Source of the DNA: Sulfitobacter pontiacus
GTDB lineage: Bacteria; Pseudomonadota; Alphaproteobacteria; Rhodobacterales; Rhodobacteraceae
Assembly (NCBI RefSeq): GCF_040790665.1
Contig: NZ_CP160849.1
Coordinates: forward strand, 2,815,501 to 2,879,500
Direction of reading: 5' to 3'
Length of the DNA: 64,000 bases
Translations under genes and position numbers: made by a program
In this document: positions 1-29,865 of the stretch, piece by piece
Layout: every line of letters begins with the position of its first letter
Position numbering within the stretch: position 1 is the stretch's first letter
The notes under the pieces: model-generated
Database searches by the model: none
Seen by the model: only the letters and a program-made list of their open reading frames with translations
Told to the model about the DNA's origin: nothing

Positions 1-714
1 CGACAGCGCGGCCCCTGTGACAAGGTAATCATAAGCCCAGATCTCCGCGTGCTGGCAGGCAAGGTCCAACTCCGCCTTGCCCTGATCGGCCACCAGGATC
101 GTCGTCTTGGCGCAGCCCGCAATCGCCTTGCGCGCCAGCACCTCGTCCGAGTTATAGTCCATCACCGCGCCCGACCCCGACAGCCCGCCACAGCTGAACA
201 CCGCGTAATCCATGCGGTAACCCGCGAAAAACGCCAGCGCTGCAGCGCCGATCAGATCCAGATCGCGCATCCGTACATTGCCGCCCGCCAGCTCCACCAT
301 CACGCCCGCGGCATTCTGCAGGGCGCACACCGCGTGGATGCTATTGGTCGCGACGAATAGGTCTTTGTGCGACGACAGAAACCGCGCGCAATGCTCAACC
401 GTCGTCCCCGTCCCAAGCGCCACCCGTGCGCCATCGGGGATCAGGTTCTTGACCGCCAAGGCGATGCGCTGCTTTTCCTGTCGCGCGATGGTTTCACGGG
501 GCAGGTAGCCGATATTCTCGCTTTGCTGGCGCAGCTGCACTTTACCCTTCCGCCGTTGCACCAGTGCCGCATCATCAAGCTCGCGCAGGTCGGCGCGGAT
601 GGTCTGCACCGAAACGTCCAGACGCTGCGATAGTTCGGCAGCGGACAAAGCGTCGTTCTGCGACAGCAGCGCAATGATCCTGTCGCGCCGGTCGGTCAGA
701 GTAGGTCGCGCCAT
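1..714 (-). CDS. DeoR/GlpR-family transcriptional regulator (C-terminus cut by window edge)
   Basis: The reverse strand opens with MARPTLTDRRDRIIALLSQN and continues through a DeoR-type winged helix (SAAELSQRLDVSVQTIRADL, about residues 23-42) into a DeoR sensor domain with the family motif GTGTTVEHCA and, near the window edge, AKTTILVADQGK. DeoR proteins bind DNA as repressors and are usually released by a phosphorylated sugar or related metabolite. The 238 codons visible have no stop, so the last part lies outside the window. The gene diverges from the ABC/phosphatase operon that starts at 884, so it probably controls that operon. The effector cannot be read from the sequence. Confidence 0.9.
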   Translation of the reverse strand, partial: MARPTLTDRRDRIIALLSQNDALSAAELSQRLDVSVQTIRADLRELDDAALVQRRKGKVQLRQQSENIGYLPRETIARQEKQRIALAVKNLIPDGARVALGTGTTVEHCARFLSSHKDLFVATNSIHAVCALQNAAGVMVELAGGNVRMRDLDLIGAAALAFFAGYRMDYAVFSCGGLSGSGAVMDYNSDEVLARKAIAGCAKTTILVADQGKAELDLACQHAEIWAYDYLVTGAALS

Positions 715-789
715 CTATTTTCCTTCGAAAACAACTCAAGGTTAGCCGGACCCTAGAGTGACCCCGTCCACGGCGCAATATAATTAAAT

Positions 790-822
790 CTGTTACGTAA
801 ATGTCATAAATCTGTAGCGTAA
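790..822 (+). promoter_or_regulatory. Putative triple Pho box (PhoB site)
   Basis: Three consecutive 11-bp units, CTGTTACGTAA, ATGTCATAAAT and CTGTAGCGTAA, stand head to tail. The middle and third units together come close to the PhoB consensus CTGTCATAAAT-CTGTCAT. The unit length and number match the clear Pho box before pstS in this window (29792-29824). A possible -10 element (GAATAA, about 827-832) follows at the spacing expected of PhoB-activated promoters. It lies about 60 bp before the ABC-transporter start at 884. Confidence 0.6.
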
Positions 823-847
823 GATGGGAATAAGGCGAGCGTGAAAT

Positions 848-863
848 GCTTTCGTACGAAAGC
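848..863. promoter_or_regulatory. Perfect 16-bp palindrome, candidate DeoR operator
   Basis: GCTTTCGTACGAAAGC reads the same on both strands. TTTCG half sites are typical of DeoR-family operators. It sits just downstream of the predicted transcription start and 20 bp before the start codon at 884, where a bound repressor would block transcription. The divergent DeoR gene is the natural candidate to bind it. TTCGAA-type half sites also occur just before that gene's own start, near 721-731. Confidence 0.55.
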
Positions 864-883
864 TACCTTTTCAGGAGAGCCCC

Positions 884-1852
884 ATGAAAACCATCCTCAC
901 CACCACCGCTTTTGCCCTGATGGCCAGCACGGCCCTTGCAGATACAATCACACTTTACACCTCGCAGCCCAATGCAGATGCACAGCAGACTGTGGACGCC
1001 TTCAAAGCCGCCAACCCCGACACCGATGTCGAATGGGTCCGCGACGGCACGACCAAACTGATGGCCCGTCTGCGCGCCGAGATCGAGGCAGGCAACCCGC
1101 AGCCCGACGTGCTGCTGATTGCTGACACCGTAACACTGGAAGGTATGGCCCAAGACGGTCTGCTCACCGCCTACCAATCGCCCGAAGCTGCCAACTATGA
1201 CAGCGCGCTTTATTCTGCCGACGGCTTCTATCACTCGACCAAGCTGATCACGACAGGCATCGTCTATAACACCGGCGTCGAGACAGCTCCGACCTCGTGG
1301 AACGACCTGAGCGATGCGGCCCTGAAAGGGCAGGTGGCCATGCCATCCCCGCTGTATTCCGGCGCGGCTCTGATCCATCTGGCAACCCTGACCGGCGATG
1401 ACAGCCTTGGCTGGGGCTATTACGAACAATTGGCGGAAAACGACGCCCGCGCCCAAGGCGGCAACGGCGGCACGTTCAAGGCCGTGGCCTCGGGCGAGAA
1501 ACCTTATGGCATGGTCGTCGACTTCCTCGCGATCCGCAACAAGGCCGAAGGGTCGCCTGTCGAATTCGTCTTCCCCACCGAAGGCGTATCCTATGTGACC
1601 GAGCCTGTGGCGATCATGTCGACCGCCAAGAACGTCGAAGGCGCACAGAAGTTCGTCGATTTCCTGCTCAGCGCGGAAGGTCAGGATGTGGTGCTTGAGA
1701 TGGGCTATATCCCCGCACGCGACGGCATGGGCGTGCCCGCCGGTTTCCCTGCGCGCGAAGACATCAAACTGATGGATTTCGATCCCGCGACCGCGTTGAA
1801 GGACGCCGAAGCCAACAAGGCCAAATTCACAGAGCTGTTTGGCGCCGAGTAA
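884..1852 (+). CDS. ABC transporter substrate-binding protein (iron/AEP/polyamine type)
   Basis: A 322-aa periplasmic binding protein. The first about 19 residues form a signal peptide ending in STALA, followed by mature DTITLYTSQPNADAQQTVDA, the typical opening of the SBP_bac_6/FbpA-like fold. AGGAGA stands 6 bases before the ATG. It heads an operon with a fused permease and an ATPase. Binding proteins of this group carry ferric iron, thiamine, 2-aminoethylphosphonate or other organophosphates. The ligand cannot be settled here, but the Pho box upstream and the phosphatase genes downstream favour a phosphorus compound over iron. Confidence 0.85.
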   Translation: MKTILTTTAFALMASTALADTITLYTSQPNADAQQTVDAFKAANPDTDVEWVRDGTTKLMARLRAEIEAGNPQPDVLLIADTVTLEGMAQDGLLTAYQSPEAANYDSALYSADGFYHSTKLITTGIVYNTGVETAPTSWNDLSDAALKGQVAMPSPLYSGAALIHLATLTGDDSLGWGYYEQLAENDARAQGGNGGTFKAVASGEKPYGMVVDFLAIRNKAEGSPVEFVFPTEGVSYVTEPVAIMSTAKNVEGAQKFVDFLLSAEGQDVVLEMGYIPARDGMGVPAGFPAREDIKLMDFDPATALKDAEANKAKFTELFGAE

Positions 1853-3555
1853 TGGGCGTTCTGACAAAAAACGGGGGCAGCCGGTCCGAGGGGTGGCTGC
1901 TCTCTACCATTTTGATTGTGGCGATCAGCCTGACCCTTGCGCCGGTGCTGCGCCTGTTTGTGGAAGGGGTGACGGATCAGGGCGCGGTTGGCCTGTCGCT
2001 CGCGGGCGAGGTGCTGCGCCAGCCATCGACGCTGAGCGCGCTGAAGCATTCGCTGGTGACCGCAGGGTTTGGCACCCTGGTCTCGGTGGTTCTGGGGGCT
2101 GCCTTTGCGTTTCTGGTAGCGCTGACCGATCTGCGCGCCAAGGCGGCGCTGGTCTTCTGCCTGATGATCCCGATGATGATCCCGCCCCAGATCACCGCGC
2201 TGTCGTGGACCCAGATTATGGGGCCGTCGTCTGTGTTGCTCAAGACCTTGGGGATGGCCCCGCCACTGGGCTCACCGCAGCCGCTTTATTCGGCGCAAGG
2301 TATCATTTTGTTGCTGGGCATCCAGCATATGTCGATCATTTTCCTGACCCTGCGTGCAGGTCTGCGCGCCATCCCGCAAGAGGTGGTAGAGGCGGCGCGC
2401 ATCAGTGGCGCGCGGGGGCTGCGCACGTGGTGGCAGGTGGTCATGCCCCTGACCCTGCCCAGTTTGGCCGCGGGAACGGCAATCACCTTTGTCACCGCTC
2501 TTGGCAACTTTGGCATCCCCGCGATGCTGGGTATTCCGGCGGGCTACGGAACCCTGCCGACACTGGTTTACCAAAAGCTGGCGGGCATGGGCACCAGCGT
2601 GCTGGCCGAGGTATCGATCCTTGCCATGCTGATCGGTGCGGTAGCTGTAACGGGCATCCTGACGCAACGGTTCTTCCAATCGCGCCAACGGGTCTATCTG
2701 GTGGGGGCCACGTCGCGCCCCTTGGCGATCCCGCTCGGGGCGGCGCGTCTGCCGGTCGAGGTGTTGCTATGGGCCGTGGTCTGCACGATCCTTGTGCTGC
2801 CCATGTTCGGCCTGTTGGCGACGTCGCTGGTGCCTGCCTATGGCGTGCCACTGCGGCTTGACACCGTAACCCTTCAGGCGTGGACCGAGGTCCTGCTGCG
2901 CCAACCGGTCACGACGCGGGCCTTTGCGAACTCCTTTGGTCTGGCGATCGGCGCGGCGGTTGTGCTCATGCTGCTCTGCCTGCCGCTGGCGTGGCTGATG
3001 GAGCGGAACCCGACGCGGCTGTCGCGGCTGTTCGACAGCCTGCTGGATCTGCCCTATGCCCTGCCCGGAGTGGTGCTGTCGATTGCGATGATCCTGCTGC
3101 TGATCAAGCTGCCGTTCACCGATGCGACGCTTTACGGCACGATCTGGATCATCTTCCTGGCCTATCTGGCGCGGTTCTTTGCGGTGATGTTCCGCCCCGT
3201 GCAAGCGAGCCTCGAGCAGTTAGATCCTGCCATGGGCGAAGCCGCGCAATCGGTGGGAGCATCGCTGTTCCAGCGGCTGCGCGATGTGATCGTGCCGCTC
3301 TCGGCACCGGCGGCGGCGGCAGGGGCGATCCTTGTGTTTCTCACCGCGTTTAACGAGCTCACGGTTTCCGCGCTGCTCTGGTCCTCGGGGACCGAGACGT
3401 TGGGCGTGGTCATTTTCAATCTGGACGACAGCGGCGAGACCGCAATGGCCAGCGCGCTGGCGATGACCATCGTACTGGTGGTTATGGCGCTGATGGTGCT
3501 GGTGCAGCTGATGTCCCGACGTTTCCCCAAAGGAGTAGTCCCATGGCAGACATAA
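1852..3555 (+). CDS. ABC transporter permease, two fused membrane domains
   Basis: A 567-aa inner-membrane protein built like FbpB: two homologous halves of about six transmembrane helices, each with an EAA-loop motif (VVEAARISGARGLRTWWQVV near residue 180 and MGEAAQSVGASLFQRLRDVI near residue 463) that docks on the ATPase. Its start overlaps the binding-protein stop (TAATG), which indicates translational coupling. It forms the channel of the importer. Substrate specificity lies with the binding protein and is not visible here. Confidence 0.88.
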   Translation: MGVLTKNGGSRSEGWLLSTILIVAISLTLAPVLRLFVEGVTDQGAVGLSLAGEVLRQPSTLSALKHSLVTAGFGTLVSVVLGAAFAFLVALTDLRAKAALVFCLMIPMMIPPQITALSWTQIMGPSSVLLKTLGMAPPLGSPQPLYSAQGIILLLGIQHMSIIFLTLRAGLRAIPQEVVEAARISGARGLRTWWQVVMPLTLPSLAAGTAITFVTALGNFGIPAMLGIPAGYGTLPTLVYQKLAGMGTSVLAEVSILAMLIGAVAVTGILTQRFFQSRQRVYLVGATSRPLAIPLGAARLPVEVLLWAVVCTILVLPMFGLLATSLVPAYGVPLRLDTVTLQAWTEVLLRQPVTTRAFANSFGLAIGAAVVLMLLCLPLAWLMERNPTRLSRLFDSLLDLPYALPGVVLSIAMILLLIKLPFTDATLYGTIWIIFLAYLARFFAVMFRPVQASLEQLDPAMGEAAQSVGASLFQRLRDVIVPLSAPAAAAGAILVFLTAFNELTVSALLWSSGTETLGVVIFNLDDSGETAMASALAMTIVLVVMALMVLVQLMSRRFPKGVVPWQT

Positions 3556-4586
3556 GCCTGTCCGCGCTTGGCAAATCATTCGCCGGAGCCCCCGCGCTGC
3601 ATGACATCACCACCACGTTCAAGGATGGCGAATTCGTCGCCCTGTTGGGGCCGTCGGGCTGCGGCAAGACCACGCTGCTGCGCCTGCTTGCGGGGTTCGA
3701 GATGCCGACGACGGGGCAGATTTCCATCGGCCCGCGCGAGGTCGCGCATGTGGCCGGCAACCGCATGGTCCCGCCCGAGGATCGTAACATCGGTTTCGTG
3801 TTCCAGTCCTACGCGCTTTGGCCCCATATGAACGTGCGGCGCAATGTGTCCTATCCGCTGGAGATCCGGCGTTTTTCCAAGGTCGAGATCACCGCGCAGA
3901 CCGATCAGGCGTTACAGGCGACGGGGCTGACGGACTATGCCGACCGGATGCCCTCCGACCTGTCGGGCGGGCAGCGTCAGCGGGTCGCTTTGGCGCGCTG
4001 TCTGGTGTCGCACCCCGATGCGGTGCTGCTGGACGAACCGCTGGCCAACCTTGATGTGGCGCTGCGGGCATCAATGCAAACGGTGTTCACCGACTTTCAC
4101 AAGCGCACCGGCGCGACGATGGTCTATGTCACCCACGATCAGTCAGAGGCGATGGCCATGGCCGACCGGATCGCCGTGATGGACAAGGGCCGCATCCAGC
4201 AGTTCGACACGCCCCAAACGCTGTATGAACGCCCCAAGAACCGCTTTGTCGCCGAATTCGTCGGGCGCGGCACGGTGGTGCCCATGCGCGGGTTCGAAAA
4301 GAGCGATAGCGCCCTGCACGGCCATGTTCTGGGGACGCGGATCGCCGTGCAAAGCGGGGATGACCTGCCAAGCCATGTCTGCCTGCGCCCCGAAAACCTG
4401 ACCATCAGCGAAACCGGCGACCTGCGCGCCAAAGTGGCGCGGGTGACCTATCTGGGCGGCAAATACCTTCTGGAAACCGTCGCGGACTGCGGCACGCGTC
4501 TGCTGGCTGAAACACGGGCACGGTTTGATGTCGGCATGCAGCTTGGCCTGACGATCACCACCCCATGGGCATTCTCCGAGGATTAA
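3543..4586 (+). CDS. ABC transporter ATP-binding protein (FbpC/PotA type)
   Basis: A 347-aa ATPase with Walker A GPSGCGKTT (residues 36-44), the signature LSGGQRQR, Walker B AVLLDEP and the switch histidine in VYVTHD, followed by a C-terminal TOBE-like regulatory domain from about residue 240. It overlaps the permease by 13 bases, with AAGGAG just before the ATG. It powers the importer encoded by the two genes before it. Confidence 0.9.
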   Translation: MADISLSALGKSFAGAPALHDITTTFKDGEFVALLGPSGCGKTTLLRLLAGFEMPTTGQISIGPREVAHVAGNRMVPPEDRNIGFVFQSYALWPHMNVRRNVSYPLEIRRFSKVEITAQTDQALQATGLTDYADRMPSDLSGGQRQRVALARCLVSHPDAVLLDEPLANLDVALRASMQTVFTDFHKRTGATMVYVTHDQSEAMAMADRIAVMDKGRIQQFDTPQTLYERPKNRFVAEFVGRGTVVPMRGFEKSDSALHGHVLGTRIAVQSGDDLPSHVCLRPENLTISETGDLRAKVARVTYLGGKYLLETVADCGTRLLAETRARFDVGMQLGLTITTPWAFSED

Positions 4587-5654
4587 ATGCAAAGCGTAAG
4601 AGTACTTTCCGGCATCGGGGACAAAGGCCCCGCATGCATGCAATTGAACACGGGCAATCGGCGCTGGCTGCTGGACTGCGGCTTTGGCCCCGAGGCCCAC
4701 GCCCATTTTGACCCGCGCTGGCTGAAGGGCGCGGATGCGGTCTTTATCACCCACGACCATATCGACCACATCGGCGGGGCGATTTATGCGGTAGAGGCGG
4801 GGCTGCCGATCTATGCCACCGCGCAAACCGCCAAGGCGCTGCCCCCTGCCGCCAAGGTCAACCTGCTGCCCGAACAGGGGGTATCCGTGATCGACGGCGT
4901 GCAGCTGACCACGGGGCGCAACGGGCACGCCATGGGCGGTGTCTGGATGCATTTCGCCTTGGGCGAGGGGCTGTTCTATTCGGGCGATTGGTCCGAGGAA
5001 TCCGACTGGTTCCCGCTGGATCTTCCGCCCCCCGCGGCAACGGCGATCCTGGACTGTTCCTACCAGCTTGACGATGTGCCCCAGACCGAAAGATTTGCAG
5101 CACTTGACGCCTTGCTGGACAGGCTTGAAGGGCAGGTGCTTTTGCCGGTGCCGCCATCGGGCAGGGCGGGCGAAATGGCCTTGCACCTGATCCGGCGCTA
5201 TGGTCACGCCAGCGTCATGCTGGACCCTGAATGTCAGGCGGTGCTGGCGACGGGTCTGCGCAGCGGCACGCTTGGCGTGGATGCGGCAGAGATCGCCCCG
5301 CTGCTGGCGCGCGGCCCGCTGGACGAGGCGCGTTTTCTGGTCTGCGACACCCCCAATGCCGATGGCGGTTCCGCCTGGGGCTATGTGCGCGCCTGGCATG
5401 AAAGCGGCCGTTTGGGGCGCGACGCGCATGTGGTCTTTACCGGCCATATGACCGCCCATGCCCGCGGGATCTGCAGCGTGCCGGGGGGATATTTCCAACG
5501 CTGGAACGTACATCCGCCGCTGCGTGATCAGGTGCGTATGCTGGAACGGCTTGGCGCGAAACGCTTTGCGCCAGCCTTCTGCACACAGCCAGAAGACTAT
5601 TTGATCGAGGATCTGGGCGTCGAGGTTTTCATGCATGATCCGGTGCGCCTGTGA
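4587..5654 (+). CDS. Metallo-beta-lactamase-fold hydrolase, beta-CASP-like
   Basis: A 355-aa protein with the zinc-binding motif THDHIDHIGG (His56, His58, Asp60, His61), a downstream His in NGHAMGG and the metal-bridging Asp in SGDWSEESD. The C-terminal third has TGHMTAHARG and RWNVHPPLRDQVRMLERL, which resemble the late motifs of beta-CASP nucleases (CPSF/RNase J/Artemis group). A phosphodiesterase or nuclease activity is therefore likely. The start codon directly follows the ATPase stop with no gap. Followed by two phosphatase genes, it probably breaks down the imported compound. PhnP-like cyclic phosphodiesterase is an alternative reading. Confidence 0.75.
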   Translation: MQSVRVLSGIGDKGPACMQLNTGNRRWLLDCGFGPEAHAHFDPRWLKGADAVFITHDHIDHIGGAIYAVEAGLPIYATAQTAKALPPAAKVNLLPEQGVSVIDGVQLTTGRNGHAMGGVWMHFALGEGLFYSGDWSEESDWFPLDLPPPAATAILDCSYQLDDVPQTERFAALDALLDRLEGQVLLPVPPSGRAGEMALHLIRRYGHASVMLDPECQAVLATGLRSGTLGVDAAEIAPLLARGPLDEARFLVCDTPNADGGSAWGYVRAWHESGRLGRDAHVVFTGHMTAHARGICSVPGGYFQRWNVHPPLRDQVRMLERLGAKRFAPAFCTQPEDYLIEDLGVEVFMHDPVRL

Positions 5655-6199
5655 GGGTGGCCGCGCTTCCGCCCTCGGACTTTTGCCTGATCCGCCACGG
5701 GGAGACGACCGCCAATGCGCAAAGCATCATCGCAGGGGTGACCGATGTAGCGCTGACCGCCCGCGGCCGCGATCAGGCGCGCGCGCTGGCCCGTCGTCGC
5801 TGGCCGCAGCCGGTCACGCTTTTCGCCAGCCCCGCCGCACGGGCGCGAGAAACCTGCAAGCTCGCCTTTCCGCAGCGCGGTTTTACCGTGATTTCCGCGT
5901 TGCGCGAACGCGACTGGGGGGCGTTCGAGGGGCAGCCGCTGTCGCAGCAACCCATACGCGAAGACACCCCCGACGGCGGCGAAAGCTGGCCCGCCATGCT
6001 TGATCGTGTCGCAGGCGCGATCCACGCGGCCTGTGCCGCCACACCCGCCGGCCACCTGCCGGTGCTGGTCTGCCATTCCGGTATCATCCGCGCCGCGCGC
6101 GTGCTGTGGACACCCCATGACGCGGGCACACGCCCGCCAAACGCCATCCCGATCCTGTTTCAGCGGTCGGGCACACTTCTTGAGGAGAAAGAGCTATGA
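5651..6199 (+). CDS. Histidine phosphatase family protein
   Basis: A 182-aa protein with the phosphohistidine motif LIRHGET (Arg15-His16-Gly17), the second arginine in SPAARARET and the late histidine in VLVCHSGIIRA, all expected of the phosphoglycerate mutase/acid phosphatase superfamily. It begins with GTG and overlaps the previous stop by four bases (GTGA). The family includes phosphatases of sugar phosphates, nucleotides and cofactors (CobC). No cobalamin gene is nearby, so removal of phosphate from the imported substrate fits the context better. Confidence 0.82.
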   Translation: MRVAALPPSDFCLIRHGETTANAQSIIAGVTDVALTARGRDQARALARRRWPQPVTLFASPAARARETCKLAFPQRGFTVISALRERDWGAFEGQPLSQQPIREDTPDGGESWPAMLDRVAGAIHAACAATPAGHLPVLVCHSGIIRAARVLWTPHDAGTRPPNAIPILFQRSGTLLEEKEL

Positions 6200-6660
6200 C
6201 ATCCGCCCCCCTGACACCTTGCGTGGTATTCGACGTCGACGGCACTCTGGCCGAGTTCGACGCGGCAAAGCTGGGTCATCTGGTGCATGGCGTCGAGAAG
6301 CAATGGGATGCCTTCCACATGGCGATGGCCGACGCCCCGCTGATTGCACCCATCGCCAAACTGATGCGCCGCCTGAAGCAAAGCGGCGAGACGATCGTCA
6401 TCTGCTCGGGCCGCCCTGACGGTTGGGCGGAACACACGATCGCATGGCTGCACAAACACGATCTGCCCTTCGACGGCGTTTACCTGCGCGCCAAGGATCA
6501 GGACGCCGCGAGCGATCCCGACGTCAAACGCCAAGCGCTGGCGCAAATGCAAGCGGACGGGCTGGCCCCCTGGCTGGTCATCGATGATCGCAGTTCGGTC
6601 GTTGACGCATGGCGTGCCGAGGGGCTTGCCTGCCTGCAATGCGCGCCGGGGGATTTTTAA
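6196..6660 (+). CDS. HAD-superfamily phosphatase, PNKP 3'-phosphatase-like
   Basis: A 154-aa HAD protein: motif I VVFDVDGTL (nucleophile Asp13, acid Asp15), motif II in VICSGRP and motif IV in LVIDDRSSVVDAW. The small size and the arrangement resemble the phosphatase domain of T4-type polynucleotide kinase. It overlaps the preceding gene (ATGA) and is the last gene of the operon. Together with the MBL-fold hydrolase this would allow stepwise removal of phosphate from a phosphodiester, perhaps a nucleotide-type compound. The substrate is inferred, not shown. Confidence 0.78.
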   Translation: MTSAPLTPCVVFDVDGTLAEFDAAKLGHLVHGVEKQWDAFHMAMADAPLIAPIAKLMRRLKQSGETIVICSGRPDGWAEHTIAWLHKHDLPFDGVYLRAKDQDAASDPDVKRQALAQMQADGLAPWLVIDDRSSVVDAWRAEGLACLQCAPGDF

Positions 6661-6782
6661 CGCGGGCGGGTGCAGCATCACGACCCTGATCGCGGATTTT
6701 GACAGCGCACCGCCCCACAGGGGCGTGCGACCAAGACGATGGTTTGTCCCGCAAGAGGTGGGCCTAAACTGTCAGGGTGAAA

Positions 6783-6872
6783 TGGCGGAGAGACAGGGAT
6801 TCGAACCCTGGGAACCCGTGAAGGCTCAACGGTTTTCGAGACCGCCCCGTTCGACCACTCCGGCACCTCTCC
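6783..6872 (-). tRNA. tRNA-Ser (anticodon CGA)
   Basis: The reverse strand folds as a class II tRNA: acceptor GGAGAGG with TCTCTCC, anticodon loop CTCGAAA giving CGA (reads UCG), a long variable arm, T arm CAGGG-TTCGAAT-CCCTG, discriminator G and an encoded CCA end. Confidence 0.95.
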
Positions 6873-7019
6873 GCATCGGTGTGGTGCGTCCGTTTAGGAT
6901 GGATTTTGCGGGGTGGCAAGGGGGGCTAGGCCAGTTTTCGCGGACACGGGGAATTTCATTGCTGACAGATGGATTTCGCCTAAGCTCTTGGGGTGGATCA
7001 ACTTGAAAGGAATGCCCTG

Positions 7020-7862
7020 ATGCGCCGACTGTCCCGTTTGCCGTTAACTTTATGTTTTGGATTGGCGGTCATGGTATCGCTGATTGCACCGATGGCACGG
7101 GCCGCCGACAGGGAAAGGGTCGATGCATTTCTGGAAGTCACAGGGTTTGATGTCGCCCTTGAAAGCATCCGGCTGTCTGCTGATTCCGCGCCGCAAATGC
7201 TGGGGATTGATGCGGATGCCTTCGGCTCTGAATGGTCGCGTCTAGTGCGCGAGGTATTCGAGACGGATTTGATGCTGGACATGGGCGCCGGTATTCTGGC
7301 GCAGGCGCTCAGCGATGATGCGCTGGAACATGCCTCGGATTTCTACGCCAGTGATCTGGGCCAACGCCTGGTGGCCGCCGAAAACGCGTCGCATATGGAG
7401 GAAGACGATGCCGCGAAAGCAGAGGCGGGCGATGCGATCCTGAACGGGCTGCGCGGGATCGATTCTCCGCGTGTGGATCTGTTGGCGCGTCTGAACGGGG
7501 CGAGCGATGTCGAGGAGAGCTCGATCAAGGCGCTGCAAGAGGTGCAGATCCGGTTCCTGATGGCAGCGGCGGGCGCGGGCGTGATCGAATTACAGATGGA
7601 AGAACCCGACCTGCGCGAAGCGATGCGCGCGCAAGAGCCCGAGATGCGCGCCTCTATCAAAGAGAATGCGCTGGCGGGGGCGGCCTATACCTATCAGGCG
7701 TTTTCCGATGAAGAGGTGCTGGTCTATGCCAAGGCGCTGGAAGATCCGCAGATGCAGGAGGTCTACGCGCTGATGAACGCCGTGCAGTTCGAGATCATGG
7801 CGAACCGGTTTGAAGAGGTCGCACAGCGGCTTGGCACCATGCAACCCAGTCAGGACCTGTAA
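7020..7862 (+). CDS. DUF2059-like secreted protein, first copy
   Basis: A 280-aa protein. The ATG at 7020 is preferred over an in-frame GTG 27 bases upstream because it begins a proper signal peptide (MRRLSRLPLTLCFGLAVMVS, cleaved near ARA-AD) and has AAAGGA before it. The mature part is helical and contains FYASDLGQRLVAAENAS, a pattern typical of DUF2059, here apparently occurring as diverged repeats. The protein should be periplasmic. Function is unknown. It is followed after two bases by a gene of the same kind, so the pair is probably co-translated. Confidence 0.75.
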   Translation: MRRLSRLPLTLCFGLAVMVSLIAPMARAADRERVDAFLEVTGFDVALESIRLSADSAPQMLGIDADAFGSEWSRLVREVFETDLMLDMGAGILAQALSDDALEHASDFYASDLGQRLVAAENASHMEEDDAAKAEAGDAILNGLRGIDSPRVDLLARLNGASDVEESSIKALQEVQIRFLMAAAGAGVIELQMEEPDLREAMRAQEPEMRASIKENALAGAAYTYQAFSDEEVLVYAKALEDPQMQEVYALMNAVQFEIMANRFEEVAQRLGTMQPSQDL

Positions 7863-7864
7863 CC

Positions 7865-8674
7865 ATGCGCGCCTTTGTTCTTGCTGCTGGCCTGTGGATG
7901 CTGGCGCTGCCGCTTTGGGCCGACGCGCGGTCAACCGTGCTGGTGGATGTCCTGCGTCTTGGCGAACTGGCCGAAATTTTGCAGCGCGAGGGGTTGGAGA
8001 ACGCGGAAACGCTTGATCGCGATATGCTCGGCGGGCAGGGCGGCGCGGGGTGGGCGCTGCAGGTGCGTGCCATCTACAACCCCGAACGGATCGTCGAAAC
8101 CCTGCGCGGGGCATTGGATGCGGGGTTGCAAGGGCAGACCCGCGAGGATGTCATTGCCTTTTTCGCGCAAGGCACCGGCGCAAGGATCATCACGCTCGAG
8201 AACGAGGCACGCGCCGCCATCACCGACCCCGAGGTGGAAGACGCCGCCCGCGCAGGGTTCCATGACCTTGAGGGCAGCGACGACCCACGTCTGGCGCAGA
8301 TCGCCACATTGATCGACAGTGGCGATATGATCGATCGCAATGTCACCGCCGCGATGAATTCCAACTTTCAATTCATGCGCGGGATGGCAGATGGCAACGC
8401 GCTGCAGATGACAGAGGCCGAGATGCTGGCCGACGTGGCGCAACAGCAAGAAGAAATCGCGCAAGACACGCGCGGCTGGCTTTATGGCTATCTGCTGCTG
8501 GCGTATTCTCCGCTGGAGGATGCAGAGCTTGACCGCTATATCGTCTTTGCGCAAAGCGATGCGGGGCGCAGCCTGAATACAGCGCTGTTCGAGGGCTTTG
8601 GCACCGCATACGAAGACGTGTCCTATGCCCTTGGTCGCGCAGTTGCGTTGAACATGGTGGCCGAGGAATTATAG
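7865..8674 (+). CDS. DUF2059-like secreted protein, second copy
   Basis: A 269-aa protein with signal peptide MRAFVLAAGLWMLALPLWA and a mature region related to its upstream neighbour (DVIAFFAQGTGARIITLENEA parallels the FYASDLGQRLVAAENA stretch). The start lies two bases after the previous stop. The pair looks like an old tandem duplication. The product is periplasmic and of unknown function. The next gene, rplU, has its own promoter, so this pair is probably a separate unit. Confidence 0.72.
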   Translation: MRAFVLAAGLWMLALPLWADARSTVLVDVLRLGELAEILQREGLENAETLDRDMLGGQGGAGWALQVRAIYNPERIVETLRGALDAGLQGQTREDVIAFFAQGTGARIITLENEARAAITDPEVEDAARAGFHDLEGSDDPRLAQIATLIDSGDMIDRNVTAAMNSNFQFMRGMADGNALQMTEAEMLADVAQQQEEIAQDTRGWLYGYLLLAYSPLEDAELDRYIVFAQSDAGRSLNTALFEGFGTAYEDVSYALGRAVALNMVAEEL

Positions 8675-16229: not shown

Positions 16230-16994
16230 ATGATCATTGCAAAAGCGGCAGAGTTCGAAGTCCGTCTGGCGCGCACCCAAGCGGATCTTCATGCGGCGCA
16301 GCGGCTGCGGTATGACGTTTTTGTCACCGAGCTGGGGGCGGGCGGGCCTTTGGTGGATCACGAAAACCGGCGAGAGGTCGATCAATACGACGATTTCGTG
16401 GACCATCTGCTGCTTATTGATCGCAAAACCCAGCAAACCGTTGGCGTGTACCGGCTGATCCGCCGCGATATGGCGGATCGGGCAGGCGGGTTCTATTCGG
16501 AAAACGAATATGATCTGACCGCGCTCAAATCCTCCGGCCGCGAGATACTCGAGCTGGGGCGGTCCTGTCTGCATCCGTCCTATCGCGGCGGCATCGCGAT
16601 GCACCAGCTTTGGGCGGGGCTTGCCTCTTACGTGGCGGAACACGGGATTGAGATCCTTTTTGGCGTCGCGAGCTTTCATGGCACCCAGGCCGAGGCATTG
16701 GCGCAGCCCCTGTCGCTGCTGCATCACACCTACCTCGCGCCGCCCGATCTGCGCGTCACCGCCTTGCCAAAGGCACGCCAGGAGATGAACCTGATCCCCG
16801 CCGACATCTTGAACCGGCGTCAGGCGATGGTGCAGATGCCCAGCCTGATCAAAGCCTATCTGCGGCTTGGCGGATGTGTGGGCGAGGGGGCCTTTATCGA
16901 TCATGACTTCAACACGACGGATGTGCTTTTGATGCTCGACACCGCCCGGCTCAGCGAACGGCAGGCCAAGATCTACAGCGGACAGCAAGGATGA
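16230..16994 (+). CDS. olsB: Ornithine-acyl-ACP N-acyltransferase (ornithine lipid step 1)
   Basis: A 254-aa GNAT-like acyltransferase: RLRYDVFVTELGA, DHLLLIDRKTQQTVGVYRLI, ILELGRSCLHPSYRGG and LFGVASFHG, features of the OlsB/hemolysin-like family that transfers 3-hydroxyacyl groups to ornithine. ATG at 16230 begins the conserved part; a frame reaching back to 16155 has no support. It overlaps olsA (ATGA). Ornithine lipids are phosphorus-free membrane lipids. No Pho box was seen before this gene. Confidence 0.88.
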   Translation: MIIAKAAEFEVRLARTQADLHAAQRLRYDVFVTELGAGGPLVDHENRREVDQYDDFVDHLLLIDRKTQQTVGVYRLIRRDMADRAGGFYSENEYDLTALKSSGREILELGRSCLHPSYRGGIAMHQLWAGLASYVAEHGIEILFGVASFHGTQAEALAQPLSLLHHTYLAPPDLRVTALPKARQEMNLIPADILNRRQAMVQMPSLIKAYLRLGGCVGEGAFIDHDFNTTDVLLMLDTARLSERQAKIYSGQQG

Positions 16995-23505: not shown

Positions 23506-24195
23506 CTACCCTAATGCATAACCTGCACCGCGCACCGTGCGGATTGGGTCATCGCCACCGTGAGATGTCAGCGCCTTGCGCAGCCGCGCGATGTGCACAT
23601 CCACGGTGCGCGTGTCGACATAAATATCGCGGCCCCAGACGTGATCCAGCAGCTGATCGCGGCTAAACACACGGCCCGGACGCTCTAACAGGGTGACCAG
23701 CAGCCGGTATTCTGTCGGGCCCAGTTTCAGCTCGTTCGCGGCGCGGTTCACGCGGTGGCGTTCCGTGTCCAGCGTGATATCGGCATAGCTAAGCGCCGCG
23801 CCCGAGGATGCCGGGCGCACACGGCGCAATTGGGTGCGCACACGGGCCATGAGCTCGCGCATGGAATAGGGTTTGACGACGTAATCATCCGCCCCCGTCT
23901 CTAGCCCGCGCACGGTGTCCACCTCTTCTGACCGCGCCGAGAGCATGATCACGGGGATATTACGCGTATCTTCGCGGGTCTTGAGCTGCCGGCACACCTC
24001 GATGCCGCTGAGCAGCGGCATCATCCAATCCAGAATAATCAGGTCCGGCAGCGCCTCTGCCACCAGCAGGATCGCTTCTTCACCATTCTCGGCCCGCCTT
24101 ACGTCAAACCCTTCGGATTCAAGGTTATACGCCAGAATTTCGCGCTGTGCGGGTTCGTCTTCCACCAACAGGATCTGGGGCTGCGCCGCCGACAT
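23506..24195 (-). CDS. phoB: Phosphate regulon response regulator PhoB
   Basis: A 229-aa OmpR-type regulator: receiver with phospho-acceptor Asp56 in LIILDWMMP, switch residues in MLSARSEEVD and GADDYVVKPYS, and a winged-helix domain (LGPTEYRLLVTLLERPGRVF, VDVHIARLRKAL). It is the last gene of the pst-pho unit. Its likely targets in this window are the Pho boxes at 29792-29824 and 790-822. Confidence 0.96.
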   Translation of the reverse strand: MSAAQPQILLVEDEPAQREILAYNLESEGFDVRRAENGEEAILLVAEALPDLIILDWMMPLLSGIEVCRQLKTREDTRNIPVIMLSARSEEVDTVRGLETGADDYVVKPYSMRELMARVRTQLRRVRPASSGAALSYADITLDTERHRVNRAANELKLGPTEYRLLVTLLERPGRVFSRDQLLDHVWGRDIYVDTRTVDVHIARLRKALTSHGGDDPIRTVRGAGYALG

Positions 24196-24199
24196 GGTT

Positions 24200-24907
24200 C
24201 TACCCCTTCAGCTTGGTGGAGGTGTTATCCGCCTTTGGGCGGTCCTCGTCCGGGTGGGTGCCGGTCACCAGATAGACGACCTGTTCCGCGATCGATGTGA
24301 CCAGATCGCCCATGCGTTCCACGTTTTTCGCGATGAAATGCAGGTGCATACACGATGTAATGTTGCGCGGGTCTTCCATCATGAAGGTGAGGAATTCACG
24401 GAACAGCGCGTTATACATCTGATCGACGTCTTCATCGCGTGCGATCACGTCCCTCGCCAGTTCTGCGTCGCGCTGCACATAGGAATCCAGCGCGTCCTTG
24501 AGCATGGATTCAACGGTTTTACACATGCGGCGGATGGCACCGGCGCTATCGGCAACTGCAGGAAGCTGCGCGAGCACTGAATTACGCTTGGCCATGTTTT
24601 TCGCATAGTCGCCAATACGTTCCAGGCTGGCGCTGATCTTGATCACGCTCAGGATCAGACGCAGGTCCACGGCTGTGGGTGCGCGCAGGGCGATGATGCG
24701 GGCGGCGCGTTCGTTGATCAGCTCTTCGAGCGCGTCAATCGCCTTGTCCCCGCCGCGGACCTGATCGGCCAGCTCTTCGTCGCGGGTTTCAAGCGATTGT
24801 GCGGCAAGGCGAATGGCATCTTCGACCATGCCACCCATTTTCATGATCTGTGCCTGAACGCTTTCGAGGTCACGGTCAAAGGCAGAGACAATGTGTTGAT
24901 CTTGCAT
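24200..24907 (-). CDS. phoU: Phosphate transport accessory protein PhoU
   Basis: A 235-aa helical protein made of two three-helix PhoU repeats with the metal-binding patterns EELINERAARIIALRAPTAV / DLRLILSVIKISASLERIGD and the second copy HLHFIAKNVERMGD. PhoU links PstSCAB to PhoR and keeps the regulon off when phosphate is plentiful. It lies between pstB and phoB with gaps of five and four bases, so it is co-transcribed. Confidence 0.96.
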   Translation of the reverse strand: MQDQHIVSAFDRDLESVQAQIMKMGGMVEDAIRLAAQSLETRDEELADQVRGGDKAIDALEELINERAARIIALRAPTAVDLRLILSVIKISASLERIGDYAKNMAKRNSVLAQLPAVADSAGAIRRMCKTVESMLKDALDSYVQRDAELARDVIARDEDVDQMYNALFREFLTFMMEDPRNITSCMHLHFIAKNVERMGDLVTSIAEQVVYLVTGTHPDEDRPKADNTSTKLKG

Positions 24908-24912
24908 GATAC

Positions 24913-25725
24913 TTATCCAATCCGGCCAGTGATGTAGCTTTCCGTCCGAGGGTCTTCGGGCGACGTGAAAATCTTGTCGGTCTCGCCGAACTCCACCAGA
25001 TTGCCAAGGTGGAAGAACGCTGTTTTCTGGCTCACCCGTGCGGCCTGCTGCATGGAGTGTGTGACGATCACGACCGAATAGTCCTGACGCAGCTCGTCGA
25101 TCAGCTCTTCGACCTGCGCGGTGGCGATCGGGTCAAGCGCGGAACAGGGTTCGTCCATTAGCAGCACTTCGGGTTCGGTCGCAACGGCACGGGCGATGCA
25201 CAGACGCTGCTGCTGCCCGCCAGAAAGGCCGGTGCCGGGCGCGTGCAGACGGTCCTTGACCTCGTTCCAGATGGCACCGCGTTTCAGGGCGCGTTCAACG
25301 ATATCGTCAAGCTCGGACTTGTTGCGGGCCAGACCGTGGATGCGGGGGCCGTAGGCGACATTGTCGTAGATCGATTTGGGGAACGGGTTCGGCTTCTGGA
25401 ACACCATGCCGACCTTGGCGCGCAGCTGCACCGGATCGACCGCGCTGTCATAGATGTCTTCGCCATCGATCAGGATATCGCCTTTGACGGTGCAGATATC
25501 AATCGTGTCGTTCATCCGGTTGATACACCGCAGGAAAGTCGATTTCCCACAGCCCGATGGTCCGATAAAGGCGGTGACGGTTTTGTCTTGGATATCGACA
25601 GAGACATCCTTGATCGCGTGGGTGTCCCCGTAGAAAACCTGCACGTTGCGGGCGGCGATTTTTGTTTGGTTCGTTGTCACGTCCGTCTCCGAAATTACGT
25701 TGTCTTTCATAGCCTTGCCTTTCAT
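24913..25725 (-). CDS. pstB: Phosphate import ATP-binding protein PstB
   Basis: A 270-aa ABC ATPase with Walker [11 protein letters not shown], the PstB-specific RCINRMND, signature [14 protein letters not shown] and Walker [17 protein letters not shown] at 25725 is used; an in-frame ATG five codons later (MKDNVIS) is also possible. It energises the PstCA channel. It starts two bases after the pstA stop. Confidence 0.97.
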
Positions 25726-25727
25726 TC

Positions 25728-27068
25728 TTACCAGCGCCGCTCGAACCGGCGCCGCAGCATTACGGCGATGGCATTCATGGTGATCAAAAAGACCAGCAAG
25801 ATGATGATACCGCCCCAGGCGCGTTCATAGAACGCGGGATCGGCGCGTTTGGCCCATTCGTAGATCTGCGCCGGCATGGCGGAGTTCGGATCCATCAGCC
25901 CCGATGCGATGCCGTCGGGCGGGTTCGAGGCGATGAAGCCGACCATCCCGATCAACAACAGCGGGGCCGTTTCACCAAGTGCCTGCGCCAGACCGATGAT
26001 TGTGCCAGTGAGGATACCCGGAGCAGCCAAGGGCAGCACGTGGTGGAACACCGATTGCATCTTCGACGCCCCTACCCCCAGTGCCGCGTCACGGATGCTG
26101 GGCGGGACAGATTTCAGCGAGGCGCGGGTCGAGATGATGATCGTCGGAAGCGTCATCAGCGTCAGCACCAGCCCGCCCACCAGCGGGGCCGAGTTTGGCA
26201 GGTGCATATAGTTGATGAAAACCGCGAGACCCAGAATACCAAAGACAATCGAGGGCACCGCCGCGAGGTTAGAAATGTTCACCTCGATGATATCGGTGAG
26301 CAGGTTCTTGGGGGCGAATTCTTCAAGGTAGATCGACGCGGCGACCCCGATGGGCAGCGCCAGCGCCAGCACCACCAGCATCATAAAGAGCGAGCCAAGC
26401 ATCGAGACCCCCATGCCCGCCGCCTCGGGTCGTGCGTCAGACGCATCGGCACCTGTGATGAAATCGAGGTTAAAGCGTTTTTCCAGCGCCCCATCTGCGA
26501 CAAGGGCGTCCACCAGATCAAGCTGCTCTGCGCTGATGCTTTTGTCGTTGGCGATGCTGTCGCGCGTGACGCGGCCTTTCATATAGCCATCAACGCGGCT
26601 GTTGGTCAGGAATTTGAATTCAACCGCGGTGCCAATGAGCTCGGGGTTATCCAGCACAAAGTCACGCAGCTGTGCCGCCGCATCCTTGGACAGGATGCCC
26701 GCCATATCCTTGGGCTTTAGGTCCGTGGTAATCCCGGTCTCGGCCACCTTGGCCTCAAGCGCGGCGGCCATCAGCGGCGCGTAGCCGAAGGTCGATACCT
26801 TCTTGATCTCGTCCAGATTCCGGTTGCCGTTCTTGTCCAGCTTTTCCTCAAGCAGTTGCACGTTCAGCGTCAGGAACGTCTGCTGAAAGGCCCCTACGCC
26901 GCGTCCGATAATCGTGGTCAGCAAGATCGCCAGCATCAGCAGGCCCACGGCGATGGCTGCGATACCGTAGGATTTGAAACGGGCCTCTGCACGGTTGCGT
27001 TTGACGGTGCGCGCGTCGGGCTTCAGCAGCGAATGGCGCGGCGTTGCGGTGTTGGGCATGTCGGTCAT
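25728..27068 (-). CDS. pstA: Phosphate ABC transporter permease PstA, long form
   Basis: A 446-aa permease. The C-terminal half has the usual transport domain ([23 protein letters not shown]-like loop [20 protein letters not shown]). Between the first helix and this domain is a large periplasmic segment of about 170 residues, the DUF3333-type insertion seen in alphaproteobacterial PstA and absent from E. coli PstA. It overlaps pstC by four bases. Confidence 0.95.
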
Positions 27069-28564
27069 TCGTACTGCTCCCGGTATTTGCGCACGATATA
27101 AAGCGCCAGAACGTTCAGCCCCAGGGTCAGCACGAACAGCGTCAGACCAAGGGCAAAGGCGACCAGCGTTTCAGGGCTGGCAAAGTCGGTATCCCCGGTC
27201 AGCTGGCTGACGATACGGGTGGTGATGGTAGTCATCGCTTCCAGCGGGTTGCCCGAGATGCGGGCGATGGCACCTGCCCCCAGAACAACGATCATCGTCT
27301 CGCCGATGGCCCGGCTCGCGGCGAGAAGCACAGCCCCCACGATCCCCGGCAAAGCGGCAGGCAGCACGACCTGGCGGATGGTTTCGGAATGGGTCGCGCC
27401 CAGGCCAAATGACCCGTCGCGCATCGATTGCGGCACAGCGTTGATGATATCGTCGCTCAGCGACGAAACGAAGGGGATCAGCATGATGCCCATGACCAGC
27501 CCCGCCGTCAGGACCGATGTCGCCCCGCTCATCCAGTCGACGCCCAGCAGACCATTCTCGCCGCGGCCAAAGACGTTCACAAGAAACGGACCCACTGTCA
27601 GCAAGGCAAACAGACCGTAAACAATCGTCGGGATACCGGCGAGGATCTCCAGCAAAGGCTTGGCGAAAGAGCGTACTTTGTTGTTGGCGTATTCCGACAG
27701 GTAGATCGCGGCAAAGAGGCCGATGGGCACGGCCACCAGCAGCGCGATGATCGAGATATAGAGCGTCCCCCAGAGCAGCGGCAGGATCGACAGATCACTA
27801 TCCCCGCGGAAGTTCGGGGCCCATGTGGTGCCCAGAAAGAAATCCTGCCACGGATGCAGGCGGAAGAAATTCAGCGTCTCGAACAGCATCGACAGGACGA
27901 TCCCCACGGTGGTCAGGATCGCCAGCGACGCAGCGAGCACCAGCAACCCCAGCAGAAAACGTTCCACCGTATTGCGCGCGCGAAAATCGGCCCGTGCGGT
28001 GCGCATCGCGATGAACAGACCGGCCAGCGCCAACACAGAGATCACCGCGATCATCAGCCAGCGGCCGGTGTATTCCATTGACCGGTAGCGCTGCGCGGCG
28101 GCCAGCACCTCTGGCGTCACGTCAGACCCAAGCGCCACGCCCGTGCCCGCCAGCAGCGCGCGCACGTCGGTGCCGGTCACGTCCAGATCACGGGCGCTTT
28201 GCGCATCCAGCGCGCCTGATTGCACGGCCGCGTCCAGCCCGTTGGCCACACGGCGCACGTCGCTCATCACGAGATTGACCGAAGAGCCTTCGTTCACGGC
28301 GCTTTGCGGGATCATGTCGACAACTGCGTTCTGGATCAGCATCGGCTGCACCAGCATCCAGATCGCCAGCACAAACAGCGCCGGAATGGCGGTGAGCATG
28401 GCGGCGTTATAGCCGTAGTAGTTCGGAAGGGAGTGCAGCTTGCGCGCATCGCCCGAGACGGACGACATGGCCCGGCTGCGCACCAGACCATAGGCAAGGA
28501 CTGTTAATATCAAAACAACGGCAACTAAGAGCGTGGTAGATCCCACATTGAAAATATCGCGCAT
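27065..28564 (-). CDS. pstC: Phosphate ABC transporter permease PstC
   Basis: A 499-aa membrane protein. The C-terminal transport domain contains AAIYLSEYANNKVRSFAKPL, PTIVYGLFALLTVGPFLV and the EAA-like loop RDGSFGLGATHSETIRQVVL. The N-terminal about 200 residues hold further helices and a periplasmic stretch, longer than in E. coli. It pairs with PstA as the phosphate channel. Confidence 0.95.
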   Translation of the reverse strand: MRDIFNVGSTTLLVAVVLILTVLAYGLVRSRAMSSVSGDARKLHSLPNYYGYNAAMLTAIPALFVLAIWMLVQPMLIQNAVVDMIPQSAVNEGSSVNLVMSDVRRVANGLDAAVQSGALDAQSARDLDVTGTDVRALLAGTGVALGSDVTPEVLAAAQRYRSMEYTGRWLMIAVISVLALAGLFIAMRTARADFRARNTVERFLLGLLVLAASLAILTTVGIVLSMLFETLNFFRLHPWQDFFLGTTWAPNFRGDSDLSILPLLWGTLYISIIALLVAVPIGLFAAIYLSEYANNKVRSFAKPLLEILAGIPTIVYGLFALLTVGPFLVNVFGRGENGLLGVDWMSGATSVLTAGLVMGIMLIPFVSSLSDDIINAVPQSMRDGSFGLGATHSETIRQVVLPAALPGIVGAVLLAASRAIGETMIVVLGAGAIARISGNPLEAMTTITTRIVSQLTGDTDFASPETLVAFALGLTLFVLTLGLNVLALYIVRKYREQYE

Positions 28565-28672
28565 GGTGGCCCCCGGTTGCAGCCTGTTTCAGGCTATCAT
28601 TGTTTGGAAAGTATCAGTCGGCAGCAAAAATCCGGAGGCACCTCGCAGCGCCTCCGGATCGTCAGACAGGTT

Positions 28673-29713
28673 TTAGGAACCGCTGCCCATTACAGTTTCT
28701 TCAGCAACAACCGACTGTGTTTTCGCCAGTTCTGGGTCGGAGACCAGACCGTATTCAGCCAAAGGACCGTCGGGACCGGCAATCTCGTCTGCCACGAAGA
28801 ACTCGGCATATTCTTTCAAGCCAGGGATCACGCCGATGTGCGCTTTCTTGACGTAGAAGAACAGCGGGCGGGATACGGGGTAGTCGCCACTCGAGATGGT
28901 TTCAACGGTGGGCTCAACGCCGCTCATGTTGGCGACGGTCAGCTTGTCGGTGTTGTTCTCGTAGAATGCCAGACCGAAGACGCCGATGCCGTCTTTGTTG
29001 CTTTCGATGCGCGCCAGCGTTTCGGTGTAGTCACCGTCGATGTCCACGGAAACACCATCGGTGCGCAGCGCGATACATGCTTTTTCAGCGGCTTTCTTGT
29101 CGTCGCCATTCGCGGCCTTAAAAGCTTCGAAGTCGCCGGTGGCTTCACAGCCTGCCAGGATCACTTTTTCTTCGAAAACTTCGCGTGTGCCGTGCTTGGT
29201 GCCGGGGATGTAGGCCTGGATCGGCTGCTCGGGGAAGCTGGCGTTCACGTCGGACCACATTTTGTTGGGGTTCGCCACGATCTCGCCGTCGACAACGACT
29301 TCGGCGGACAGGGCTTTGTACCAGTCTTCGGGGGTGAATTCGAATGTGTTGCCATTGATGTCAGACGCAAACACGATGCCGTCATAGCCGATCTGGACTT
29401 CGATGATGTCGGTCACACCGTTGGCGGCGCAGGCTTCGACTTCGGAGCTCTTGATCTGGCGCGAGGCGTTTGCCACGTCGATTGTGTTCTCGCCAACACC
29501 TTCACAAAAACGCTTCAGACCCGCCGAGGAGCCACCGGATTCAACAACAGGTGTCGGGAAATCGAAGTTTTCGCCAAAGGCTTCGGCTACGATGGACGCA
29601 TAGGGCAAAACAGTGGAGGAACCGGCAACCTGTACCTGATCACGCGCGGCAGCGGCGGTTGCGGATACGGCGGCAATGGCCAGCGCGGAAGTGGTGAGTT
29701 TAACGAGCGACAT
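28673..29713 (-). CDS. pstS: Phosphate-binding periplasmic protein PstS
   Basis: A 346-aa protein. ATG at 29713 starts a signal peptide (MSLVKLTTSALAIAAVSA, cleaved near AAA-RD) and has AGGAGA before it. The mature start VQVAGSSTVLPYASIVAEAF and VVESGGSSAGLKRFCEGVGE carry the phosphate-binding serines of the PstS family; GTREVFEEKV follows. It captures phosphate for PstCAB. It is separated from pstC by 108 bases and has its own Pho-box promoter. Confidence 0.97.
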   Translation of the reverse strand: MSLVKLTTSALAIAAVSATAAAARDQVQVAGSSTVLPYASIVAEAFGENFDFPTPVVESGGSSAGLKRFCEGVGENTIDVANASRQIKSSEVEACAANGVTDIIEVQIGYDGIVFASDINGNTFEFTPEDWYKALSAEVVVDGEIVANPNKMWSDVNASFPEQPIQAYIPGTKHGTREVFEEKVILAGCEATGDFEAFKAANGDDKKAAEKACIALRTDGVSVDIDGDYTETLARIESNKDGIGVFGLAFYENNTDKLTVANMSGVEPTVETISSGDYPVSRPLFFYVKKAHIGVIPGLKEYAEFFVADEIAGPDGPLAEYGLVSDPELAKTQSVVAEETVMGSGS

Positions 29714-29791
29714 GATGTCTCCTGTCAGCTTAGATTTGTCTGACCACCCCCATGGTGATCTTGCCGCACCAATAGGCGGGCGACACTGAGC

Positions 29792-29824
29792 TTTTGTGAC
29801 AGTCATGTTACAGTTTTATGACAC
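29792..29824 (-). promoter_or_regulatory. Triple Pho box of pstS
   Basis: On the reverse strand three 11-bp units follow one another: GTGTCATAAAA, CTGTAACATGA, CTGTCACAAAA. The outer two match the PhoB half-site consensus closely. It lies about 80 bp before the pstS start. Confidence 0.85.
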
Positions 29825-29865
29825 GGACGGAAATTGTAATTTCTTTTTGACCAAAATGCGCCCGA

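Follow-up and report, generated by a model that had tools for sequence, protein, structure and literature searches.

Which compound does an ATP-binding cassette (ABC) importer take up when its genes are joined to those of three hydrolases, and which signals control it? The question is raised by six genes at 884-6660 of a 64-kb stretch of Sulfitobacter pontiacus contig NZ_CP160849.1 (hereafter the window; G000:C1:2815501-2879500, within a 3.55-Mb genome), which encode a substrate-binding protein (SBP), a fused permease, an ATPase, a hydrolase of the metallo-beta-lactamase (MBL) fold, a histidine phosphatase (HP) and a HAD phosphatase. A first-pass annotation of the same DNA had described an FbpABC-type importer that, under phosphate starvation, brings in a phosphate ester for stepwise removal of its phosphate, and this interpretation is supported in part. 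The operon is real, conserved and placed behind a Pho box, and it resembles known Pho-regulated organophosphate importers; its function is a predicted one. We consider it probable that the cassette scavenges organophosphate in response to two inputs, with an importer of a small phosphate ester, activated by PhoB and repressed by a DeoR-type regulator, coupled to phosphate release inside the cell.

Promoter architecture and phosphate control

The three 11-bp Pho-like direct repeats annotated at 790-822 (+) are all present, with CTGTTACGTAA at 790-800, ATGTCATAAAT at 801-811 and CTGTAGCGTAA at 812-822. Mismatches were scored against CTGTCATAAATCTGTCAC, which we take to be the E. coli Pho box consensus. 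On both strands of the window just two 18-mers lie within three mismatches of this consensus, at 801 (+) and at 29807 (−), and none has exactly four; the best 18-mer of the operon's own box, 801-818, differs at three positions. In 100 dinucleotide shuffles of the window such sites number 0.03 on average and never more than 1. The site at 29807 precedes the genome's own pstS-like gene, where it belongs to a triplet of 11-bp Pho repeats located by eye at about 29785-29824. A phoB-phoU-pstBACS-phoR cluster occupies 23506-30909 (−) of the same window. PhoB (23506-24195) scores 342.5 bits against a curated cut-off of 296.2, and PhoU, PstB, PstA and PstC likewise exceed theirs, with the PstS-like (140.5 versus 206.6 bits) and PhoR-like (309 versus 334.2 bits) proteins below the cut-off.

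Upstream regions of 170 bases from the window and 63 relatives were scanned on both strands; these 64 are related sequences and not independent tests. Locus L016, in which the SBP lies on the other strand, was dropped, and L001-L011 and L017 have no SBP in their short stretches. The best Pho site has at most five mismatches in 23/64 regions and at most six in 41/64, against 0.8% and 6.7% of shuffled regions (about 28% at seven or fewer), a few of the best sites being off-position (for example at −163 in L064) or on the opposite strand. A strict degenerate Pho pattern, which gave 7 matches in the whole genome versus 6 in a reversed control and did not match the operon's site, was abandoned, and mismatch counts were used instead. 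The Pho box in this promoter is above chance and conserved.

Control by phosphate, as first annotated, is borne out as far as the Pho box goes, but a divergent DeoR/GlpR-family repressor gene and a conserved operator had been overlooked. The repressor gene (1..714 on the minus strand, extending beyond the window to G000:C1:2815447) encodes 255 residues with Pfam HTH_DeoR and DeoRC domains; its closest NCBIfam model is GlpR PRK10906 (140.1 bits, under the cut-off of 331), and the open reading frame (ORF) is found in L086. Known relatives of the DeoR/GlpR type, as of the SorC type met below, sense phosphorylated sugars. Conservation was read from an alignment of 43 of the 64 upstream regions, those with an SBP at least 78% identical, as the mean frequency of the commonest base. 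The palindrome CTTTCGtnCGAAAG at 849-862, between the promoter and the SBP start codon, is the most conserved part of the intergenic region (0.93) and the window's only TTTCGWWCGAAA. This palindromic operator (CTTTCGTACGAAAG) is probably that of the DeoR-type repressor. A second, imperfect DeoR-type site (TTTTCCTTCGAAAA, 718-731) adjoins the deoR start codon, where TTTCcTTcGAAA is conserved (0.80 over 717-731).

Between the two DeoR-type sites lie further separate islands of conservation: an AT-rich one (about 775-789), the Pho core tGTcAcAAAAcngTtnc, and a −10-like block AATAAGG (0.86), with GAATAAG at 828-834 (+) as the putative −10 element. Conservation of the Pho box is concentrated in repeat 2 (0.80), and repeats 1 (0.55) and 3 (0.58) are no better conserved than the spacer. 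A promoter-like match on the minus strand at 807-780 might, tentatively, serve deoR and would then overlap the Pho box; the region holds 3 such matches versus 1.5 expected in shuffles. The layout suggests activation by PhoB together with repression by the DeoR-type regulator downstream of the start. As such, phosphate starvation is probably not the sole signal.

Binding protein and hydrolases

The six genes lie where they were first placed. The SBP gene (884..1852, +; signal-peptide-like N terminus judged by eye) overlaps by 1 base the gene of the fused permease (1852..3555, +; two BPD_transp_1 domains), which overlaps by 13 bases that of the ATPase with its TOBE domain (3543..4586, +). Overlaps of 4 bases join the MBL gene (4587..5654, +) to the HP gene (5651..6199, +; GTG start) and the HP gene to the HAD gene (6196..6660, +). 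The tight coupling reported earlier thus holds at these four junctions, but the ATPase and MBL genes abut (4586/4587) without overlap.

The predicted import of a phosphate ester agrees with the best solved relatives of the SBP. In the sequence ranking, VcA0625, AfuA and P5PA score above every iron protein among the matches listed, and AfuA comes first in the fold ranking of the SBP model. According to two reports, AfuA and P5PA bind sugar phosphates and pyridoxal phosphate, respectively, and AfuA was formerly taken for an iron transporter (PMC4546632, PMC8427247). The phosphate-loop positions S37, S148 and G149, described there for AfuA, are retained as T56, S159 and G160, which are invariant in 33 sequences and preserve the Ser/Thr-Gly phosphate loop of AfuA and P5PA; T150 of AfuA is A161. 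The sugar-binding residues H205, D206 and E229 in the same description are replaced by F214, L215 and V238, in a mapping counted by hand on the alignment that may be shifted by one or two residues (D213 and E240 are nearby). K120 and D81 are invariant and D213 and E240 nearly so, and these four are candidate contacts to a different ligand.

The FbpABC label suggests iron, but by sequence the SBP is nearer to AfuA and P5PA. The tyrosine pair that we take to be the iron ligand of FbpA, its position transferred through the AfuA alignment and not aligned to FbpA itself, occurs in 0/33 aligned sequences (columns 208-221). Within residues 180-250 of the 33 sequences YY appears only twice, both times upstream in W-x-Y-Y-E.

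The three hydrolases first annotated all carry their catalytic motifs, but the beta-CASP identity of the MBL protein and the PNKP identity of the HAD protein had escaped notice. In the compact MBL-fold hydrolase (355 aa), HxHxDH, H114, D134 and D156-x-S-Y are invariant over 32 rows and correspond to the metal ligands of motifs 1-4 and to motif A. Its model (pLDDT 88.6) matches the beta-CASP ribonucleases 2ycb, Ysh1 and CPSF3 with TMq 0.75-0.79, and a family profile search finds 2ycb at 1.2e-34. Judged by motifs 1-4, motif A and the modelled fold, it is a beta-CASP metallohydrolase. H309 is invariant and probably motif B, and F331/C332 stand, by eye, at the spacing of motif C; we take a His in motif B and a His or Val in motif C to be the beta-CASP pattern.

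The HAD protein (154 aa) scores 84.2 bits against PF25109 (HAD_PNKP; cut-off 27.6), and its nearest solved structures are Pnkp1 and polynucleotide kinases. By family score and DxDGT motif it is of the PNKP type, with predicted 3'-phosphatase activity. The HP is of branch 1 and CobC/alpha-ribazole-phosphatase-like; alpha-ribazole phosphatases are its nearest relatives, at 67.9 bits versus a model cut-off of 162.9. Counted over the 48 relatives described below, the motifs persist: HxHxDH and DxSY in 48/48 MBL proteins, RHG[EQ] in 46/47 HPs, and DxDGT in 41/41 and SGR in 39/41 HAD proteins. The second His of the HP (38/47) and the DD motif of the HAD protein (36/41) were counted with patterns of our own that are less complete.

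Linkage, distribution and sister importers

Conservation of the gene set was examined in 48 loci found through the MBL gene in named genomes, a selection that speaks to linkage and not to prevalence. By hits above 100 bits, the SBP-permease-ATPase-MBL core is present and colinear in 48/48, accompanied by HP in 47, HAD in 41 and DeoR in 45; the permease ORF is shortened in two (L029 and L036). The MBL gene itself occurs in 17/295 family genomes (E ≤ 1e-20), a threshold that misses at least two SurE-type loci (G183, G010), and in 17/398 phylum genomes; the single same-genus genome listed (G055) has no match. Among 72,556 plasmid records, 72 match the MBL (E ≤ 1e-5), and in 60 of these the match covers 80% of the query or more. 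The distribution is patchy, over chromosomes and plasmids, and the carriers include the laboratory strain Phaeobacter inhibens 2.10.

Similarly, 29 further loci from Alphaproteobacteria and other Pseudomonadota (10 plasmid and 19 genome stretches, chosen for their MBL) hold SBP, permease and MBL in 29/29, with ATPase clusters in 29 (L075 doubtful). At least one phosphatase stands beside the MBL in 26/29. Its type varies, with HP in 15, HAD in 8, SurE in 5, a DSP-like protein in 4 (a weak assignment, under the Pfam cut-off) and none in 3. In an MBL tree of 49 sequences (these 29, L018 and 19 of the 48 loci above), the SurE loci form one supported clade, and SorC-type regulators accompany SurE in 5/5. 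Since the phosphatase types are exchanged while the MBL stays, release of inorganic phosphate (Pi) would be their common end.

Genes for Na/Pi cotransporters lie beside three SurE-type versions (L071 10156-11820 and L076 9972-11636, as annotated; L168 7319-8986, Pfam Na_Pi_cotrans) and might export surplus phosphate; in L168 an inositol-monophosphatase-family gene is also nearby (6442-7239). On a conjugative plasmid of Enterobacter hormaechei, an importer-MBL-HP set (L067, 4204-9607) has a Pho-like site before the SBP gene, an IS5-like transposase gene 0.3 kb upstream (2883-3863) and an IS1 transposase gene downstream at 16863.

The importer also occurs apart from the hydrolases. At E ≤ 1e-40 the SBP matches in 44/295 family genomes, leaving up to 25 without the MBL. 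Two of 20 SBP regions fetched (L168, L169) are SurE/MBL loci with a SorC gene, and the other 18 are sister importers, with SBPs mostly 55-65% identical (L153, at 76-77%, is a close relative). Their ATPase gene is convergent to SBP-permease in 13 and on the same strand in 2, and in 3 no neighbouring ATPase was found. Pho-like sites with at most six mismatches occur in 6/20 regions and with at most seven in 16/20, as scanned over 200 bases (the shuffle rates above come from 170-base regions). A wider importer family under Pho control is modestly supported by these counts, and L153-L167 and L170-L172 are probably members of such an uncharacterised family.

In the window, the gene for tRNA-Ser(CGA) (6783-6872, −) directly follows the HAD gene. 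Synteny to the congener G055 (L175) at the nucleotide level breaks off at the end of this tRNA gene, which suggests a variable site. Insertion of the cassette through this tRNA was considered and rejected, as no repeat of the tRNA end was found on the left side and no repeat flanks the cassette; the best match to the tRNA end, 15 bases long and located inside the permease gene, is at chance level. Beyond lie a DUF2059 gene (6993-7862), 69% identical in G055, and an ORF at 7865-8674 with no Pfam or NCBIfam match.

Mechanism, substrate and relation to known systems

Under phosphate starvation, PhoB would bind the box at 790-822 and activate the promoter whose −10 element lies near 828-834. Downstream of the start site, the DeoR/GlpR-type repressor would stay on the palindrome (849-862) and come off in response to a phosphorylated metabolite derived from the substrate. 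The SBP would capture a small phosphorylated organic molecule, which the fused permease and the ATPase would bring whole into the cytoplasm. There the beta-CASP-type metallohydrolase is predicted to open a phosphodiester, presumably as the first step, and the HP and/or the PNKP-type HAD protein may then remove the resulting phosphomonoester to leave Pi and an ordinary metabolite.

Several observations weigh against this proposal. The SBP model is of moderate quality (pLDDT 77), and by fold the iron protein HitA takes second place. Pho sites are uneven: the best sites of the SurE/SorC loci L071, L072, L076, L108, L122, L168 and L169 have 7, 4, 7, 6, 9, 7 and 7 mismatches, and among the MBL-linked loci L104-L122, also scanned over 200 bases, just 8/19 have six or fewer and 12/19 seven or fewer. 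Across 51 loci, the cassette has no recurrent neighbour that would use the organic moiety. MBL, HP, HAD, SurE and DSP genes were found in 0/18 of the sister stretches, searched over their whole length (two are cut by contig ends); as several of these importers nevertheless have Pho-like sites, the hydrolases are not obligatory. In addition, an oligonucleotide would fit the AfuA-like pocket less well than a small ligand.

A further point of this kind comes from Phaeobacter sp. MED193, whose proteome under phosphate starvation and upon phoB deletion is reported in PMC10132767. Its genome holds the operon (L026, with no HAD match), the permease lying at 0.171-0.172 Mb, which places the operon near tags MED193_0342x. 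This estimate comes from a calibration by hand of about 0.187 kb per tag unit, in which the large permease genes at 288.6-290.7 kb were identified with pst and those at 1431-1432 kb with phnE; it rests on permease size and assumes a linear tag order. Table 1 of that report contains no protein between tags 03127 and 04037, and none near the estimated tags; it shows highlighted proteins only, so the absence is suggestive. Starvation alone may therefore not suffice for induction, and a repressor still bound for want of its ligand, or weak control by PhoB, would explain the absence. MED193_11419/11424 (PotA/PotD) and 11439 (GlpR) of the same report were rejected as the operon, since the calibration puts 11419 near 1.67 Mb and the permease lies at 0.171-0.172 Mb.

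As to the substrate of the proposed unit, we lean slightly, as a leading guess, to a phosphodiester of the nucleotide kind, for instance a cyclic or 3'-phosphorylated nucleotide, because of the beta-CASP fold, the PNKP-type HAD protein, the SurE nucleotidase relatives and PTP-SAK/HAD_SAK matches (under cut-off). A more speculative version, doubtful as a whole, is that a mobile PhoB/DeoR cassette imports products of RNA breakdown (cyclic or 3'-phosphorylated nucleotides, dinucleotides) intact as a phosphorus source, with a beta-CASP ribonuclease retooled into a small-molecule phosphodiesterase for the first step and interchangeable 3'/5' phosphatases (PNKP-type HAD, HP, SurE, DSP-like) thereafter.

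Almost as likely is a phosphodiester built on glycerol or a sugar, which fits the relatives of the SBP and the resemblance of the regulator to GlpR. In the corresponding rival account, which we hold possible, the importer takes up a sugar phosphate or a phosphodiester based on glycerol, a polyol or a sugar, and the repressor senses glycerol-3-phosphate or sugar phosphate released by the MBL enzyme. Glucose-6-phosphate is the ligand of the two solved binding proteins nearest to the SBP, the closest named model of the repressor is GlpR, and SorC takes the repressor's place in one clade; however, the sugar-binding residues of AfuA are replaced here, the enzymes are relatives of beta-CASP and PNKP proteins and not of GlpQ, and histidine phosphatases are generic.

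It is unlikely that the substrate serves mainly as inducible carbon, in a DeoR-controlled catabolism of a phosphorylated compound that PhoB influences only modestly. The better conservation of the operator than of the Pho repeats, the estimated absence from the MED193 table and the weak Pho sites of most SorC/SurE loci speak for such a role, but no further recurrent gene accompanies the cassette or follows deoR in the 51 loci (neighbour clusters have two to four members only), and distant clades have Pho-like sites as well, among them Enterobacter (L067, 4 mismatches) and Azospirillum (L068, 6 mismatches).

Import of a phosphonate resembling 2-aminoethylphosphonate is very improbable. The best NCBIfam hits are indeed TIGR03261 for the SBP and TIGR03262 for the permease, with TIGR03265 fourth for the ATPase, but at 137 versus 392.75, 184.1 versus 593.25 and 299.8 versus 457.7 bits they fall far under their cut-offs, and by family neither a C-P lyase nor a phosphonatase is encoded by the six genes and their hydrolases act on esters. 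Least credible of all is a ferric-iron importer with an incidental Pho box or iron-phosphate crosstalk, for despite the 'iron ABC transporter permease' label in 8/10 annotated plasmid stretches listing genes, the similar folds and the second rank of HitA, the tyrosine pair is missing at the transferred position in 33/33 sequences, three phosphate-ester binding proteins outscore every iron protein in the list, and the linkage to phosphohydrolases is fixed.

Organic phosphorus serves marine bacteria and phytoplankton when phosphate limits their growth, and for two lipid headgroups cleavage occurs outside the cell, according to PMC10132767. If the proposed scavenging unit is real, import of a whole ester followed by internal cleavage would be another route of organic phosphorus use, a beta-CASP enzyme would be tied to a nutrient importer, and the cassette would probably be concealed under the label 'iron ABC transporter'. 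The cassette is apparently undescribed: no description of the gene set was among the open-literature matches listed, which is not proof of absence.

The first-pass statement that the set does not match phn, ugp or aep systems stands, with all listed models under cut-off (for permease and ATPase, among the best 25 models), including UgpC at 302.9 versus 432, UgpE at 36.2 versus 297 and UgpA at 33.4 versus 335 bits. The cassette is like ugp, phnCDE and aepXVW/phnSTUV in its Pho-box control and in the predicted import of a phosphorus compound, but its six genes include no GlpQ, C-P lyase or phosphonatase and instead encode a beta-CASP enzyme and a PNKP-type HAD protein. With the AfuABC hexose-phosphate and P5PAB pyridoxal-phosphate importers of Actinobacillus it shares the SBP fold and phosphate-binding loops, whereas the ring-binding residues differ, and the MBL, the phosphatases, the Pho box and the DeoR-type control are the cassette's own. 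T4 PNK and the Pnkp1 phosphatase domain have the HAD_PNKP family (above cut-off) and the DxDGT and SGR motifs in common with the HAD protein, which in contrast stands alone at 154 aa, without a kinase, in an import operon. Finally, the MBL protein has the fold (TMq 0.79 to 2ycb), motifs 1-4, motif A and the P-x-x-x-GR segment of the beta-CASP ribonucleases aCPSF1, CPSF-73, TTHA0252 and RNase J, but differs from them in being shorter (355 aa), in having Phe-Cys at the place of the motif C His (by spacing, by eye) and in its genetic tie to an importer.

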